Part shown: positions 14,167 through 24,743 of the stretch, piece by piece
Position numbering within the stretch: the first letter of the stretch is position 1
Layout: each line of letters opens with the position of its first letter
From: a bacterium
GTDB taxonomy: Bacteria > Acidobacteriota > Terriglobia > Terriglobales > Acidobacteriaceae
Length of the DNA stretch: 64,000 nucleotides
Reading direction: 5' to 3'
Assembly: GCA_026225095.1 (NCBI GenBank)
Contig: JAMFSC010000164.1
Coordinates: forward strand, 1-64,000
Position numbers and translations under genes: made by a program
Notes under the pieces: generated by a model
The model's input: only the letters and a program-made list of their open reading frames with translations
Database searches by the model: none
Told to the model about the DNA's origin: nothing

Positions 14167-16254
14167 TTGTCAAACGGATCCAGCATCGACGCATTCAAAC
14201 AGGCCTTCCAGGAAGAGGCGAGAGAGATCCTCGTCGAGCTCGAAGCCACTCTGCTCGAACTCAACGAGAGTCGTGCCGACGCCGAACTCGTCGGCAAAGC
14301 CTTCCGCGCTCTCCACACCATCAAGGGCTCCGGATCCATGTTCGGATTCGACAAGCTCGCTGCCTTCACCCACAACCTTGAGAACGCCTTCGACGAGGTC
14401 CGCAACGGTCGTCTCGAGGTCACCTCCACGCTCATCGATCTCTCCCTCGCCGCGCTCGATCAGATCAAGGCCATGCTCAACGAGGCCGCCGGTCAAGGCT
14501 CGGCCGATGCCGCCACCATCACCGCCATCCTGTCCCAGCTCCAGCACATCATCGGCTCCGGCCCGAAATCGTCGGACCCCCAACCCGCGACCCAGTCCCA
14601 ACCCGCCTCCACCTCCCACCCCGCGACCACCGAGTGGAAGATCCGATTCGCACCTGGGCCGGATCTTCTGCACAACGGAACCCAGCCTCTGCTTCTCATC
14701 CGGGAGCTGGCGCAGTTCGGCGAGCTCAGTGCCGTCGCCCACACCAACGCCGTCCCCCCGCTCCGCGAGCTTGACCCCGAGCGCTGCTACCTTGGCTGGG
14801 AGATCACGCTTCACTCGAACACATCCGCAGCGGAGATCCGCGACGTCTTCATCTTCGCCGAAGATCAGTGCGAGTTGACGATCGAGCCCGTCAACCTCCC
14901 CATCGATCTCTCGCCCATGATCGCCGCAACCCCAGTGGTCCCAACGGCTGTCGACAGCAGCCCAGCACCCGAGCAGCCCGCCAGGTTTGGACGCCGTGCC
15001 GACGACCGCCCCGAGGGAGCATCCAACATCCGCGTCCCCACCGCCAAGCTCGACCAGTTCGTCGATCTCATCGGGGAACTCGTCACCGTCCAGGCTCGCC
15101 TCGGTGTCATCGCCTCGCGCATCGAGGATCCAGACGTCGCGTCCGTCTCCGAAGAGGTCGAGCGCCTCACCTCCGCCCTGCGCGAAAACTCCATGAGCAT
15201 CCGCATGCTCCCCATCCGCGCCACCTTCGAGCGCTTCCGCCGACTCATCCACGATCTCGCCCGCGACCTCAAAAAGAACGTCGATCTCACCATCGAGGGA
15301 GCCGACACCGAGCTCGACAAGACCGTCATCGATCAGCTCAACGATCCCCTCATGCACCTCATCCGCAACAGCATGGACCACGGCATCGAGCCCTCCGACG
15401 CACGCATCGCGGCAGGCAAACCACCCGCCGCCACCCTGCGTCTCTCCGCCCGCCATGCCGGCGCCAACGTCCTCATCGAGGTATCGGATGACGGCGGCGG
15501 CATCCACGCCGAAGCCGTCCGCGAACGCGCCATCGAGAAGGGACTCATCGCCGCCGACGCCCAGCTCTCCGAGGCCGAGATCTTCTCCCTCATCCTCAGC
15601 CCGGGCTTCTCCACCGCCAAGCAGATCACCGACGTCTCCGGCCGCGGTGTCGGCATGGACGTCGTACGCCAGAGGGTCGAGGCGCTCCGCGGAACCATCC
15701 AGATCACCAGCAAGCGCGGCGAGGGAACACGCATCATCCTGCGTCTTCCGCTCACCCTCGCCATCATCGACGGCCTGCTCGTCCGCGTCGGCCAGGCCTT
15801 CTTCGTCCTTCCCCTGGCCAACAGCCTTGAATGCATCGAACTCACCCGCAAGGACATCGTCGCCTCCCACGGCAAGCACGTCGCCAACATCCGCGGAGAG
15901 ATCATTCCCTACATCCGTCTGCGCGAGTACTTCGACATCACCTCCGGCCGCCCCGAGGTCGAACAGATCATGATCGCCGAGACCGAGAACGGGCGCTGCG
16001 GCTTTGTCGTCGACGAGGTCCTCGGCGACCACCAGACCGTCATCAAGAACCTCGGCCAGTTCTATCGGCACATCAAGTTCGTATCCGGAGCCACCATCCT
16101 CGGCAACGGCACCCTCGCCCTCATCCTCGACCCCAACCGCGTCGTCGAAGACGCCCTGCGCGCCGCCGGTTCAGGCTCACACCTCCAGGCTCTTGCGAAC
16201 GCTGCACCGCCATATTCCATGGCCGCCGATCTGGTCGGCCAGAGCGCTGCCTAG
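14167..16254 (+). CDS. cheA: Chemotaxis histidine kinase CheA
   Basis: A 695-residue cytoplasmic kinase. The Hpt domain carries His50 in RALHTIKGSGSMFG. Residues about 155-245 form the P2-like domain seen in many CheA proteins (LLHNGTQPLLLIREL, CYLGWEITL). The dimerisation helix pair, ATPase domain (N-box LIRNSMDHGIE, DDGGGI, GRGVGMDVV) and CheW-like C-domain (DGLLVRVGQAFFVLPL) follow. It starts with TTG at 14167, with a GGGGGG tract upstream; no nearer ATG is in frame. It phosphorylates CheY and CheB, and should bind the receptor through CheW encoded downstream. Confidence 0.95.
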   Translation: MSNGSSIDAFKQAFQEEAREILVELEATLLELNESRADAELVGKAFRALHTIKGSGSMFGFDKLAAFTHNLENAFDEVRNGRLEVTSTLIDLSLAALDQIKAMLNEAAGQGSADAATITAILSQLQHIIGSGPKSSDPQPATQSQPASTSHPATTEWKIRFAPGPDLLHNGTQPLLLIRELAQFGELSAVAHTNAVPPLRELDPERCYLGWEITLHSNTSAAEIRDVFIFAEDQCELTIEPVNLPIDLSPMIAATPVVPTAVDSSPAPEQPARFGRRADDRPEGASNIRVPTAKLDQFVDLIGELVTVQARLGVIASRIEDPDVASVSEEVERLTSALRENSMSIRMLPIRATFERFRRLIHDLARDLKKNVDLTIEGADTELDKTVIDQLNDPLMHLIRNSMDHGIEPSDARIAAGKPPAATLRLSARHAGANVLIEVSDDGGGIHAEAVRERAIEKGLIAADAQLSEAEIFSLILSPGFSTAKQITDVSGRGVGMDVVRQRVEALRGTIQITSKRGEGTRIILRLPLTLAIIDGLLVRVGQAFFVLPLANSLECIELTRKDIVASHGKHVANIRGEIIPYIRLREYFDITSGRPEVEQIMIAETENGRCGFVVDEVLGDHQTVIKNLGQFYRHIKFVSGATILGNGTLALILDPNRVVEDALRAAGSGSHLQALANAAPPYSMAADLVGQSAA

Positions 16255-16338
16255 CGATTCAACATGGCCCAGCCTTACGGTCCAGTGCCGATACCTCTAC
16301 ACGATCTAGAACGAGTCCCGCAGCATCGGAGAAGCATC

Positions 16339-19300
16339 ATGAAATGGTTTTATGACATGAAGATTGGTACAAGGCTGATGGTCGCCTTCATCCTCGTAGG
16401 GACCATCACCGCCGTCGTCGGCTATGTCGGGATCAGGAACCTTGGCGACCTCGCCCAGCGCTCCGCCAGCGCCTACGAGAACGAGACTCTCGGCATCGCC
16501 TCCATCGACCAGATCAATGTGGATATCAAACAAGCCGCCAGGTCCGAAAAGAATATTCTCTTGTCCGCTAGCGTCGAGCAGCGCGCGATGTACAAAGCCC
16601 GCACCGAGGCAACGATCGCAAAGATCAATGCCGACATTGAGAAGACCCGGCCTATGATCCGTGCCGAAAAAGGAAAGATTGCCTTCGCCCAGATCGAGCA
16701 AAGCTGGAAGGCACGGGAGGAGGTCGCTCATCGCATCATCGACCTGGCGATGAAGGATCCTCTGGAACCGCGAAGAGCGTCGGTGGATCTCGCCTTTGGC
16801 GATGGCGGCACCAGAACGGACGTCGCAGTGGATGCGGTGGACCAGTTGACAGCCATCAAACTCGAAGTCGCGCGCCTTGGAGCGGAGTCCAACGAGCAGA
16901 CCTATCAGAGCAGCCGCAACGTGATGCTCTTCCTCATCATCGGAGGGGTACTGGCGGGCTTCGCCCTCGGAACCTTCATCTCGCGCAGCGTCTCCAAACC
17001 GCTCGCCCAGCTATCGGAGGCCGCGAGACTCATCTCGCTCGGCGACGTCAACCAGAACATTACCTACCAATCCGCCGACGAGGTCGGAGCACTCGCCGAC
17101 TCCTTCCGTGCCCTGATCGTCTACATCAAGGGCCTATCAGGCGTCCTCGAAAAGCTGGCCGCCGGCGATCTCAGCGCCAAGGTCGAAGCCAAATCCGACC
17201 AGGATCTCCTCACCCGCAGCTATCTTAAGATTGCCGATGCCGTCCAGACCCTCGTCCGTGACGTCGACACCCTCGCCCGCGCAGGTGCCGAAGGCGGCCT
17301 CACCACCCGCGCCGACGCCTCCAGGCATCATGGCGACTTCCGAAAGATCGTTCAGGGCGTCAACGAAACACTCGACGCCATCCTCATCCCCATCGGCGAA
17401 GGCAACCGCATCCTCGCGCAAATCTCCTCCGGCAAGATCGACGAACTCATCGCCCAGACCTACAAGGGCGACCACGAGAAGATGAAGATCGCCGTCAATA
17501 AAGTCGCCGTCGTCCTCCAGGGCCTCCAGAAAGAACTCGACCGCCTCACCGAGGCATCCCGCCAGGGCCAGCTCTCCGAACGCGGTAAGCCCCAGCAGTT
17601 CCAGGGCGCGTATGCGGAGGTCATCGTCGGAGTCAACGACATGCTCGACGCCATCCTCCTGCCCATCGGCGAAGGCAACCGCATCCTCGCGCAGATCTCC
17701 GCCGGCAAGATCGACGAACTCATCGCCCAGACCTACAAGGGCGACCACGAGAAGATGAAGCTCGCCGTCAACAACGTCGCCGTCGTCACCCAGGGCCTGC
17801 AAAAAGAGATGTCCCGCCTCACCGAGGCATCCCGCCAGGGCCAGCTCTCCGAACGCGGAAAGCCCCAGCAGTTCCAGGGCGCCTACGCCGAGATCGTCGT
17901 CAACGTCAACGAGATGCTCGACGCCATCCTGTTGCCCATCGGCGAAGGCAACCGTATCCTCTCCCAGATCTCCGCCGGCAAGATCGACGAACTCATCGCC
18001 CAGACCTACAAGGGCGACCACGAGAAGATGAAGCTCGCCGTCAACAACGTTGCCACCGTCCTGCAGGCCCTGCAAAAGGAGCTCACCCGCCTCACCATCG
18101 CATCCAGGGAAGGTCAACTCTCCGAACGCGGCAAGCCCCAGCAGTTCCAGGGCGCTTACGCCGAGATCGTCGTCGGAGTCAACGCCATCCTCGACGCCGT
18201 CATCGCCCCGCTCAACGTGGCCGCTCGCTACGTCGATCAGATCAGCAAGGGCGACATGCCCTCCGCCATCACCGACACCTACTACGGCGACTTCAACACC
18301 ATCAAGAACAACCTCAACGCCCTCATCGCGGCCATGGATGAGATCACCCTCGCCGCCTCGAACATCGCCGACGGCGACCTCACCGTCATCGTCCGCGAGC
18401 GCTCCTCCCAGGACAAGCTCATGCAGGCGCTCGGCTCGATGGTTGGTGGCCTCGTCCGCACTGTCACGGACGTCCGCACCATCGCCAGCGAGGTCGCCAC
18501 CGCCAGCCAGGCCATCAGCACCACCTCCGTCGAGGTCTCCACCGGAGCCAGCATCCAGGCCGCCTCCGCCGAGCAGGCCTCCTCCTCCATGGAGCAGATG
18601 GTCTCCAACATCAAGCAGAACGCCGACAACGCCCAGCAGACCAACAAGATCGCCATCAAGAGCGCCAAGGACGCCCAGGAGAGCGGAAAATCCGTCCTCG
18701 AAGCCGTCACCGCCATGAAGGAGATCGCCACCAAGATCTCCATCATCGAAGAGATCGCCCGCCAGACCAACCTCCTCGCCCTCAACGCCGCCATCGAGGC
18801 CGCCCGTGCCGGCGAGCACGGCAAAGGCTTCGCCGTCGTCGCCGCCGAGGTCCGCAAGCTCGCCGAACGCAGCCAGCGCGCCGCCGGAGAGATCACCCAG
18901 CTCTCCACCACCACCGTCCAGGTCTCCGTACGCGCCGGCGAGATGCTCGACAGGCTCGTACCCGACATCCAGAGAACCGCCGAGCTCGTCCAGGAGATCA
19001 CCGCCGCCAGCCAGGAGCAAGACGTAGGCGCCGAGCAGATCAACAAGGCCCTCCAGCAGCTCGAGCGCGTCATCCAGCAGAACGCCTCCGCCTCCGAGGA
19101 GATGGCCGCCACCACCGAGCAGCTCACCGCCCAGTCCGACCAGCTCCTCAGCGCACTCGGCTTCTTCCGTACCGGAGACGAAGGCCGCAGCCACTCCGCA
19201 CCCCGCAGCCCCAAACCCGCCCAGGTCGTCTCGGCACGGTCCGCCAAGTCCAACGGCCGAGTCCTCCCACCCGAGGGCAGACCCCTCGCCAAGGGTGGCT

Positions 19301-19359
19301 TCAACCTCATGCTCAAGGATAAGAACGACGATCTCGACAAGGGTTTCGAGCGCTACTAA
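16339..19359 (+). CDS. Methyl-accepting chemotaxis protein with tandem 91-residue (di-HAMP-like) repeats
   Basis: A 1006-residue receptor. TM1 lies at about 10-31, a four-helix-bundle periplasmic sensor at 32-193, TM2 at 195-214, then a HAMP domain. Residues 345-617 hold three near-identical 91-residue units, each resembling two HAMP modules ([18 protein letters not shown], then [15 protein letters not shown]). The signalling hairpin follows with its tip [20 protein letters not shown] near residue 805. A flexible tail ends in GFERY, which fits the aromatic CheR-tether pentapeptide pattern. The ATG at 16339 has GGAG upstream and begins right before TM1; an ATG at 16264 would add 25 unlikely residues. 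Confidence 0.93.
17371..18189 (+). repeat. Three perfect-length 273-bp tandem repeats inside the receptor gene
   Basis: Units begin at 17371, 17644 and 17917, each with a version of CTCGACGCCATCCT, and end at 18189 where a diverged fourth start (CTCGACGCCGTCATC) appears. The spacing is exactly 273 bp each time and nucleotide identity is very high, including synonymous positions. This points to recent duplication or ongoing homogenisation within the gene. Confidence 0.93.
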
Positions 19360-19391: not shown

Positions 19392-19913
19392 ATGAGCACA
19401 ACCGACACAACCGGGATGACCGAGACCAAACAATACCTCACCTTCAAACTCGGCGCCGAGGTCTTCGCCACCGAGGTCTCCAAGGTCCGCGAGGTCCTCG
19501 ACTTCACCACCATCACCGAGATCCCCCGCACCCCGGAGTTCATGAGCGGCGTCATCAACCTCCGCGGAAGCGTCGTCCCAGTCGTCGACATGCGCCTCTG
19601 CCTCGAGATGTCCCGCACCGAGCGCACCACCAACACCTGCATCGTCGTCCTCGAGGTCCTGCTCGAAAACGAGTCCATCGTCATCGGAGCCCTCGCCGAC
19701 TCCGTCGAAGAGGTCATCGACCTCGAACCCGACCAGATCCGCCCCGCCCCCCGCATCGGCTCCCAGATTCGAACCGACTTCATCAAGGGAATGGGCAAGC
19801 GCGACCAGCAGTTCATCACGATTCTCGATATCGACCGCGTCTTTTCAGCCGAAGAACTCAGTGTGGTCCGTAACCCGGAAGGCGGCAGATCGGTCTCCGA
19901 ACCGGCAGCCTGA
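19392..19913 (+). CDS. cheW: Chemotaxis coupling protein CheW
   Basis: A 173-residue protein that bridges the receptor tip and the CheA C-domain. It shows the family's landmarks: YLTFKLGAEVFATEVSKVRE at the start, EIPRTPEFMSGVINLRGSVV, then PVVDMR and the closing ILDIDRVFSAEEL. The ATG at 19392 has AAGGA 7 bases before it and is 32 bases after the receptor stop, so it belongs to the same operon. Confidence 0.95.
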   Translation: MSTTDTTGMTETKQYLTFKLGAEVFATEVSKVREVLDFTTITEIPRTPEFMSGVINLRGSVVPVVDMRLCLEMSRTERTTNTCIVVLEVLLENESIVIGALADSVEEVIDLEPDQIRPAPRIGSQIRTDFIKGMGKRDQQFITILDIDRVFSAEELSVVRNPEGGRSVSEPAA

Positions 19914-19940: not shown

Positions 19941-22420
<2,480 letters not shown>

Positions 22421-22470
22421 AACCAGACGCCAGCCATACGACCAGGACCTCATCCGCAGGAGAACACACG

Positions 22471-24330
22471 ATGACAGTGAAGCATCCAAAATCCGCCAGG
22501 ACCACAATGGCCGCCCAGACCGCCCAGACCGCAACAGGGGTGAAGACCGCACCCTCCGTCACGCCCCCCCCCACCACCACCACGAAATCCGTCCCGGCCC
22601 CATTGCGACTCCTCGACAAATCCAGCAAGGATCTCACCCTCCTCGCCCGCGCCAGCGAGACCGAGATCGACGCCATCGCCCGCGCCTTTCAGGAACTCGC
22701 CGGCCAGAGCACCGTCATCCTCGGTCTCGCCTCGGCAATCGTCGACTGCATCGAAGGCGAGGGCATCCGTTCAGTCCTCCCACAGGTAAGCTGCCTCGGA
22801 ACCGCCGCCATGCTCTTCGTCGCCGAAAGGCTCAAGGCCACCGTCGGAATCCTCGATACCGTGACCACCGAAACCAAGCTCCTCAAGCACCTCTCCATCA
22901 TCACGGCCAGCCAGTCCACCATCGCCCTCAAGACCCGCGTCCTCACCATGCTGACCAACGTCGAGGTCGGACGCCTCGGAACCACCGGCTCAGGCTTCCA
23001 GCACCTCGCCGTCGAGCTCTCCAGGTTCTCCCAGTCCCTCTCCGAAGACACCGAAGAACTCGTCCTCCACACCGAGGCCCGCCGCCACGCCATCGAGATC
23101 ACCCGGCGCGTCCTCACCGGCCAGCTTCCCCACCTCCGGGAGGAGTTCGCACGCATCGAAACATCGCTCGCCGAGGACGTCCGAGAACTCGAGTCCGGGT
23201 TCAATGCCCTCCTTGCCATCCCCACCCAGTTCCGATCCGCCGTCCAGGACATCGCCGCCCAGATCACCGGGGTCGTCGCCGCCATCCAGTCCCACGACAT
23301 CACCCGCCAGCAGATCGAGCACGTCCAGGAAGCTCTGCCGCTGGTCGAAGCGAGCCTCTCCGCCGGCAGCAAATCCCGCGCGACCCTGGCCCGCGCAGCC
23401 GCGGCGCAGGACCGCGCCCGCGCCTACGCCGGCCTCACCGTCCAGATCTACCAGCTCCAGAGCATCAAGGCCACCGTCGCCGGCTGGACCTCCCAGGTCA
23501 AGAGCTGCATCCAGGGGCTGCTCGATATCGGCGGCTCAGGGCTCGTCGGAATCAGCCCGCTCGTCCTCGAGCAGGAGCGCGAGGTCTCCTCCAAACTCGC
23601 CCACATCGAGCTCCTCGAGCGCGAGAGCGTCGAGTACAGCGCCAAGATCCGCACCACGGTCGGAAGCCACTCCAGCCTGGTCCAACTCGTCCAGCGCCAC
23701 GTCGAAAAATCACGCGACGTCCGTCAGGTCCTGCATCTGCTCTCCATCAACTCCATCATCGAGGCCAGCCGACTCGGAGATCACGCCAACGCCATCCTCG
23801 AGATCGGCAACGGCATCTCCGACCTGTCCTCCGAGTGGAGCAAGATCACCGACCAGTCCGAACTCGCCATGCAGGAGATCCTCCGCCTCGTCGAACAGAC
23901 CAGGATCCTCCTCGAAACCTTCTCCGAGGACGGCGATGAAAGACTGCGATCGGCGCAGGATGAGACCCGGACCTGCCTCGTCGGCCTGCGCGCCGCCGCG
24001 GAATTCGCCGCCCGGCAGACCTCCGACATCCAGAACGCCACCCGCAGAATGCAGACCGTCAGTGCCGGTGTCGGCCGCACCTGCGATCTCCTCGTCGAAG
24101 CCTATCGTCACCTTGACACCGTCCTCGAGACCCTTGAGGCGAAGCGCCGTCAGCTTGAGACCGCCTACCCCGAGGTTCGCCGCGGCTACGACCCACAGGG
24201 CATGGAGTCTCTCTTCTCCGCCTCCTACACCACCGAAACCGAACGCGAAGTCCTCCACGCGGCCCTCAACGGCAAGGCACTCCCAGAGTTTCAAAAACCT
24301 TCGGTGGGAAATGACGTAGAGCTTTTCTAG
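22471..24330 (+). CDS. Soluble helical Che-associated protein with CheZ-like DITRQ motif and degenerate MCP tip
   Basis: A 619-residue protein without signal peptide or membrane segment, predicted to be almost all alpha-helix after a Pro/Thr-rich N-terminus. Residues 272-284 read IQSHDITRQQIEH. Asp276 and Gln280 reproduce the D-x-x-x-Q spacing of the CheZ phosphatase motif (DLTGQ) on a helix. Residues 423-457 (LLSINSIIEASRLGDHANAI) resemble an MCP signalling tip but lack the canonical E-A-A-R-A-G-E core. The gene sits between cheB and cheY, where a CheY phosphatase is otherwise missing. The ATG at 22471 is chosen because AGGAG lies 8 bases upstream; an ATG at 22417 overlapping the cheB stop is the alternative. 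The function is inferred, not established. Confidence 0.75.
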   Translation: MTVKHPKSARTTMAAQTAQTATGVKTAPSVTPPPTTTTKSVPAPLRLLDKSSKDLTLLARASETEIDAIARAFQELAGQSTVILGLASAIVDCIEGEGIRSVLPQVSCLGTAAMLFVAERLKATVGILDTVTTETKLLKHLSIITASQSTIALKTRVLTMLTNVEVGRLGTTGSGFQHLAVELSRFSQSLSEDTEELVLHTEARRHAIEITRRVLTGQLPHLREEFARIETSLAEDVRELESGFNALLAIPTQFRSAVQDIAAQITGVVAAIQSHDITRQQIEHVQEALPLVEASLSAGSKSRATLARAAAAQDRARAYAGLTVQIYQLQSIKATVAGWTSQVKSCIQGLLDIGGSGLVGISPLVLEQEREVSSKLAHIELLERESVEYSAKIRTTVGSHSSLVQLVQRHVEKSRDVRQVLHLLSINSIIEASRLGDHANAILEIGNGISDLSSEWSKITDQSELAMQEILRLVEQTRILLETFSEDGDERLRSAQDETRTCLVGLRAAAEFAARQTSDIQNATRRMQTVSAGVGRTCDLLVEAYRHLDTVLETLEAKRRQLETAYPEVRRGYDPQGMESLFSASYTTETEREVLHAALNGKALPEFQKPSVGNDVELF

Positions 24331-24380: not shown

Positions 24381-24743
24381 ATGAAGCGCATCCTATCCGT
24401 TGACGACTCGGCGAGCATCCGCCAGATGGTCGCTTTCACCCTGCGCGGCGCCGGCTACGACGTCACCGTCGCTGTCGACGGCGTCGATGGGCTCTCCAAG
24501 GCCGGTAGCGCCAGGTTCGATATGGTCATCACCGACCTCAACATGCCCAACATGGACGGCATCCAACTCATCGCCGCCATCCGCAAGCTTCCCGGCTACT
24601 CCTTCGTCCCCATCCTCATGCTCACCACCGAGTCGCAGGTCGAAAAGAAAGACGCCGGCCGCAAAGCCGGAGCCACCGGCTGGATCGTCAAACCGTTCGG
24701 CGCCGACCAACTCGTCTCAGTCGCCCAGAAGCTCGTCAAGTAA
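24381..24743 (+). CDS. cheY: Chemotaxis response regulator CheY
   Basis: A 120-residue receiver with Asp8-Asp9, phospho-acceptor Asp52 (VITDLNMPNMDG), Thr in LMLTTESQ and Lys in WIVKPFGAD. It has no output domain. It is the last gene of the operon, 50 bases after the helical protein, and its ATG has AGGGG upstream. It should carry the CheA signal to the output machinery, which is not encoded in this window. Confidence 0.93.
   Translation: MKRILSVDDSASIRQMVAFTLRGAGYDVTVAVDGVDGLSKAGSARFDMVITDLNMPNMDGIQLIAAIRKLPGYSFVPILMLTTESQVEKKDAGRKAGATGWIVKPFGADQLVSVAQKLVK

Follow-up and report, generated by a model that had tools for sequence, protein, structure and literature searches.

In E. coli, chemotactic signal termination is recruited to the receptor array through CheA, and in the phosphatase CheZ, Q147 positions the attacking water and D143 orients the CheY active-site lysine. 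CheZ forms a four-helix bundle from the two hairpins of a dimer; CheC and CheX differ from the CheZ type in both fold and motif. The available text on E. coli CheZ lays the protein out as an N-terminal helix, a hairpin (residues 35-168), a linker and a C-terminal helix (199-214), and treats the FQ that precedes the catalytic Asp as part of an AXXFQ motif (PMC7750401); the accessible part of another report describes fusions of CheC or CheX to CheA (PMC10782961). S. meliloti CheT is reported to be a CheY-P phosphatase with a DXXXQ motif that shows no significant homology to known chemotaxis proteins and forms a complex with CheR (PMC12654446), so the general kind of enzyme is already known. According to Tran et al. 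(2008), Geobacter genomes are without cheZ and CheZ-independent signalling must operate in them; the same paper describes a CheR tether at the end of Geobacter receptors of class 34H (PMC2577667). In the open-access literature, searched by title and start of the abstract, we found no description of a receptor-CheZ hybrid. Here we describe P0001, an acidobacterial protein that, judged from its sequence and that of its relatives, is probably a cytoplasmic CheZ-type CheY-P phosphatase built on chemoreceptor-like helical hairpins.

P0001 is encoded in a chemotaxis cluster within a 64,000-nucleotide stretch of contig JAMFSC010000164.1 (assembly GCA_026225095.1), the whole of which we call the window. 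The cluster runs cheA (14167), MCP (16264), cheW (19392), cheR (19941), cheB (ending at 22420), the P0001 gene and cheY (24381), which confirms the placement between cheB and cheY given in the initial annotation:

14167..16254, + strand, cheA (from the Pfam scan of cluster proteins)
16264..19359, + strand, methyl-accepting chemotaxis protein with a canonical tip and several HAMP domains
19392..19913, + strand, cheW
19941..20792, + strand, cheR
20843..22420, + strand, cheB open reading frame, true start probably near 21356
22471..24330, + strand, P0001 gene, receptor-like/CheZ-like hybrid protein of 619 amino acids
24381..24743, + strand, cheY, presumed substrate of P0001

Translation of the P0001 frame (22471-24330, + strand) gives 619 amino acids with zero internal stops. 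We favour the ATG at 22471 over a start at 22417 because an AGGAG (22458-22462) sits ahead of it. The 5' part of the cheB frame (20843-21355) encodes about 170 low-complexity residues without a Pfam match, so that the real cheB start probably lies at about 21356. In the cluster MCP (16264-19359), Pfam recognizes one 4HB domain, one HAMP and four HAMP_2 stretches. The product of cheY at 24381 retains D8, D9, D52, T82 and K104 (counted by hand). Pfam found CheZ, CheC and CheX absent among the 10 proteins scanned around the P0001 gene.

Within P0001, we distinguish the following segments:

22612..22710, + strand, N-terminal helix, residues 48-80, including T64-E65 (assigned by eye)
22918..23025, + strand, first degenerate receptor tip, approximately residues 150-185
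23263..23346, + strand, CheZ-like catalytic segment, residues 265-292
23296..23298, + strand, codon of D276
23308..23310, + strand, codon of Q280
23707..23841, + strand, second degenerate receptor tip, residues 413-457
24226..24246, + strand, conserved motif, residues 586-592, with Y586, T587 and R592 invariant
24307..24327, + strand, conserved C-terminal tail GNDVELF, residues 613-619, a candidate docking peptide

Both receptor tips are degenerate. The MCPsignal family (PF00015) matches residues 422-534 at 23.1 bits (E 7.6e-5), a weak match that falls short of the 34.6 cut-off and is in keeping with the initial annotation's degenerate tip at about residues 423-457; that annotation missed the first tip (about 150-185) and the conserved GNDVELF tail. 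At E<=1, Pfam gave P0001 no match to a sensor domain or HAMP, none to CheC or CheX, and none to CheZ (PF04344). D276 and Q280 sit inside IQSHDITRQQIEH, and the translation confirms the reading DITRQ at residues 276-280. P0001 holds two DxxxQ motifs, starting at D260 and D276. Shuffled copies of the protein contain 1.37 such motifs on average, with at least one in 77.5% of 2000 shuffles; because this is the chance level, a DxxxQ is by itself not evidence, and the evidence is its conservation.

A protein search of genome contigs returned six relatives of P0001, three from metagenome-assembled genomes named Acidobacteriaceae or Acidobacterium (43-53% identity over the best segment) and three from Geobacteraceae (23-25% over the best segment), the latter all passing the PF00015 cut-off. 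Overall identity between acidobacterial and Geobacteraceae members of this long family is about 20%. In an alignment of P0001 with the six relatives (A1), the longest conserved run is HDIxRQQIEHVQE. The A1 profile, run on 141 genomes from the order that includes Geomonas propionica (G298), gave matches at E ~1e-70 or better in about 102 by hand count; at E <= 0.001 it matched 140 of the 141, the weak matches including ordinary receptors and shorter relatives. The best 30 matches all carry HDIxRQ and an [ED]LF terminus, and at all 30 loci frames for a STAS protein, cheY and cheA lie downstream on the same strand within 1.5 kb; in Geomonas, cheR, cheD and cheB come after STAS-cheY-cheA.

After removing an ordinary receptor (L002) and three duplicates (L016, L017, L023), we obtained 35 distinct long sequences, many of them close relatives and one (L012) cut at its N-terminus, and D276 and Q280 are invariant in 35/35, which bears out the earlier expectation that homologs keep both residues. 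H275, R279, E283, H284, V285, L618 and F619 are likewise invariant in 35/35, as is a C-terminus of the form [NDS]x[ED]LF. Residues 273-285 form the most conserved 13-residue window of P0001 (mean 4.11 bits, versus 2.02 overall). The other DxxxQ, at D260, is not invariant across the family.

Shorter relatives are open frames of about 345-483 amino acids with a single hairpin-like MCP region. We examined 14 of them, comprising 12 loci from one search plus L003 and L009, and all 14 pass the PF00015 cut-off and carry FQDxxxQ after the receptor tip. The tip is near-canonical by eye in 13/14, L009 being divergent, and 13/14 have a strongly hydrophobic N-terminal stretch, part of which may precede the true start in these stop-to-stop frames. 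The 13 C-termini not cut by a contig end read ELF in nine, ELW or EIW in two, and neither in two (L049, L052). cheY adjoins the gene at 11/12 loci, and at the remaining one (L047) the contig ends. Neighbouring receptors end in EFERF/EFEKF in 5/5 cases whose end was read, resembling the CheR tether of Geobacter, and the short hybrids beside them end in ELF, ELW, EIW or otherwise.

We compared the catalytic segment with that of CheZ. It reads LQFQDITRQKIEKVV in over-cut-off CheZ of the same phylum, MQFQDITRQKIEHVI in short relatives such as L048 and IQSHDITRQQIEHVQ in P0001. The string QFQDITRQKIE is common to acidobacterial CheZ and several short relatives. Over 24 residues, the 14 short relatives share 8-14 identical positions with the acidobacterial CheZ L059, P0001 shares 10 and E. 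coli CheZ shares 6. Across 16 diverse long and short members, invariance is confined to Q273, D276, Q280 and V285, four columns out of 71. The corresponding 71-column profile, A2, was built from 16 hybrids and zero CheZ sequences. Among 297 genomes of the phylum it matched 23, and in 18/18 genomes with an over-cut-off CheZ it matched the CheZ reading frame (E 1.5e-5 to 4.7e-10; coordinates compared by hand). Two genomes with sub-cut-off CheZ matches only (G010, G037) were unmatched by A2.

Profile-profile alignment with hhalign points the same way, with a CheZ set that is narrow (14/15 from one phylum, Neff 2.0): the 15 CheZ sequences reached a probability of 96.1% against the 14 short relatives, 92.3% against 38 long ones and 4.5% against eight ordinary receptors. 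With the catalytic motif masked, the short score was 69.0% and the long score 1.7%. The fall from 92.3% to 1.7% means that the CheZ similarity of the long family rests on the catalytic helix. What remains of the short match lies in the N-terminal helix, where LPELAAQLDAITsDTE pairs with the LPQYTELLGAQLREATAETE region, so in this comparison the N-terminal helix of the short relatives aligns to the N-terminal hairpin helix of CheZ, and that of the long family does not. E. coli CheZ alone gave non-significant scores in the right register, both by hhalign (2.0% for short, 0.5% for long, 0.1% for receptors) and against A2 (7.2%); the conserved Asp and Gln align by hhalign with its D143 and Q147.

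At E <= 1, PF04344 matched at least 11 of 24 family proteins (3/10 long, 8/14 short) and 0/10 ordinary receptors, some of which come from the same clusters as hybrids; the count combines P0001 (0/1) with batches of 1/5, 3/10 and 7/8, and is a minimum because for P0005 and P0006 it draws on the best 25 families listed. None of the scanned family members passes the PF04344 cut-off of 30.7 bits, the best being L048 at 22.4 bits. Judged by end coordinates, the 10 best matches that cover the motif place the Asp at profile position 126-129 (129 in the four that lack net gaps), and the match of E. coli CheZ itself places D143 at 129-132. The best match of L053 lies over the N-terminal helix and not over the motif. 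The residues just before the Asp are FQ in 14/14 short relatives, A, F, S or T followed by H in the long family, and SH in P0001, which therefore lacks the FQ feature of CheZ. Because both the Pfam cut-off and this feature were tested and neither was found in P0001, we do not file it as CheZ.

Several architectures related to CheZ turned up in these searches. L059 (1228-2187) is a CheZ preceded by a HAMP domain (Pfam HAMP E 5.9e-7) and is a further link from receptor modules to CheZ. In L127 (715-1686) and L131 (1468-3129), a CheW domain recognized by Pfam is fused to a CheZ-like helix recognized by A2, which reads QFQDISRQ and QFQDIARQ, respectively; Pfam gave no CheZ match for either at E<=0.05. 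These fusions are another possible array-bound phosphatase. L084 (1285-1899) and L120 (1354-2307) are small CheZ-like proteins with MDQSEIDALL and QFQDITRQ, L084 having a sub-cut-off CheZ match at 24 bits; their MDQSEIDALL resembles the CheY-binding N-terminus of FliM/FliN.

Downstream of the Asp, the hydrophobic face of the catalytic helix is oriented as in CheZ. We computed the hydrophobic moment over the next 18 residues: its angle to the Asp is 149-219 degrees in 25/25 members (P0001, 10 of the other 34 long and 14 short) and 174-178 degrees in 3/3 CheZ proteins, E. coli included, so that the Asp and Gln lie opposite the hydrophobic stripe in all of them. The hydrophobic face before the Asp flips in all 25 members and in two acidobacterial CheZ proteins, and does not in E. 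coli CheZ. AlphaFold models of full-length P0001 (pTM 0.53) and of residues 44-305 (pTM 0.40) are all-helical, and the hairpin is verifiable in neither. The fragment model consists of two helices, of which the second (54-257) runs through the expected tip without a break. The full-length model breaks the helix at residue 274, and the fragment model has no break there. By fold, the full-length model scores comparably against helical toxins, TTYH channels and chemoreceptors, and CheZ is absent among the 50 matches listed; long helices make this comparison uninformative. Against solved structures, the full-family profile retrieved chemoreceptors at the top and then unrelated coiled coils, and the catalytic-segment profile retrieved unrelated coiled coils, with CheZ absent from the best 60 of 98 matches.

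The hybrids share with CheZ a catalytic-helix D-x-x-x-Q in the same register and a gene beside cheY as for E. coli cheZ; after the helical part they end in a conserved tail that may correspond to the C-terminal peptide of CheZ. They differ in a presumed longer hairpin with a receptor signalling tip (two tips in the long form), in length (open frames of about 345-690 amino acids, versus 214 for E. coli CheZ and 315-403 for acidobacterial CheZ frames), and in their tail, which is ELF in place of the VDDII/VDDLL type. Compared with the MCP signalling domain, the tip is near-canonical in the short relatives and degenerate in P0001, which has no sensor or HAMP match and adds the CheZ-like helix and ELF tail. 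CheC and CheX share the proposed role of P0001. CheT, compared here by description only, binds CheR and is not described as receptor-like in the available text (PMC12654446).

The 35/35 conservation, the reciprocal profile search, the hhalign comparison and the helix face together favour the initial proposal of a CheZ-type phosphatase on receptor-like hairpins, and comparative evidence makes it well supported that P0001 is a variant of the CheZ kind. CheZ appears to be the best model for how P0001 works; from this model we infer catalysis, CheY as the substrate, tail function, hairpin fold and array location. The presumed first hairpin would carry D276 and Q280 on its C-terminal helix, on the face opposite the hydrophobic stripe; Q280 would place the attacking water and D276 would orient the CheY active-site lysine, like CheZ Q147 and D143. 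The C-terminal ELF tail may tether CheY, as the CheZ C-terminal helix does, and the two degenerate receptor tips could hold P0001 on the receptor/CheA/CheW array or next to it. The sensing of array state put forward in the initial annotation is more speculative, and the tips of P0001 are degenerate.

The same features could belong to a soluble receptor-like array adaptor, a sink or scaffold without catalysis that would bind CheY-P, or some other Che protein, through its conserved HDIxRQQIEHV helix and its ELF tail. The weak MCPsignal matches and two receptor-like tips fit such an adaptor, as does long-family conservation that reaches past the Asp and Gln to H275, R279, E283, H284 and V285, as a binding surface would. 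However, just four columns stay invariant once the divergent short relatives are included, both residues of CheZ chemistry being among them, and the catalytic segment retrieves true CheZ genes; we consider the adaptor unlikely. Improbable to a greater degree is a dual-function, CheT-like adaptation protein whose ELF tail tethers CheR or CheB, with phosphatase activity secondary. In receptors, the NWETF pentapeptide tethers CheR or CheB, and the P0001 tail NVELF resembles it in position and partly in sequence. cheR is present in the cluster, and a CheT-CheR complex is reported in the available text on CheT (PMC12654446). The tails of the hybrids (ELF, ELW, EIW or other) nevertheless differ from the EFERF/EFEKF ends of neighbouring receptors (5/5), which weakly suggests a partner other than CheR. 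Finally, it is very hard to credit that P0001 is a degenerate receptor without a role in signalling, its DxxxQ having arisen by chance: although 77.5% of shuffled copies contain the motif by chance and the gene is missing from 14 other genomes of the genus, the 35/35 conservation, the conserved tail and the conserved gene neighbourhood argue against it.

If P0001 is a CheZ-type phosphatase, it is one of several candidates in its cell. The window's genome contains FliM and three CheX matches, and a CheC match was not found there; the statement in the initial annotation that the cluster has no cheC, cheX or cheZ therefore holds for the 10 cluster proteins scanned and does not extend to the genome, where CheX is present. 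Two of the CheX matches are in a second che cluster (L099, G000:C150:1-9000), which reads cheA-cheR-cheD-cheY-cheX-cheB-receiver-cheX, and the third is near fliM. Every che cluster of this genome seems to have its own candidate phosphatase, and a shared phosphatase is also conceivable. We rejected the idea that the hybrid is the only phosphatase of the cell, with CheX matches in 11/11 genomes searched and CheC matches in 5, some of the two kinds being the same gene.

Over-cut-off CheZ is absent from 7/7 host genomes; G298 has a sub-cut-off PF04344 match of 21 bits in a 92-amino-acid frame. One hybrid, L130, shares genome G097 with CheZ, which touches a refuting condition named in the initial annotation, and we rejected general mutual exclusion with CheZ. 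L130 (622-1824) is a single-hairpin hybrid with a near-canonical tip, QFQDRVSQ and a C-terminus of SDITFF. More frames, of 380-470 amino acids, matched A2 in G097's family of genomes. Distribution in the window's phylum is patchy: in the A2 genome search, which caps the candidates scored in each genome, strong matches outside CheZ-bearing genomes came from the window's own genome, G139, G171 and G193, and among the 15 genomes of its genus searched with A2, only its own matched and the 14 others did not.

Beyond P0001 itself, we tentatively suggest, at somewhat less than even confidence, that there is a large hybrid class in which receptor hairpin and CheZ helix form one coiled coil, acting as an array-gated CheY-P phosphatase, and that CheZ and the receptor hairpin share ancestry. 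An array-gated hybrid, if real, would couple the generation and termination of the signal in one lattice; shared ancestry, if real, would mean that CheZ arose by shortening of a hairpin or the hybrid by lengthening of CheZ. The long family is a concrete candidate for a missing phosphatase in bacteria such as Geobacter. If this reading is correct, a receptor-like protein can itself house signal termination, which would then not only be recruited through CheA.
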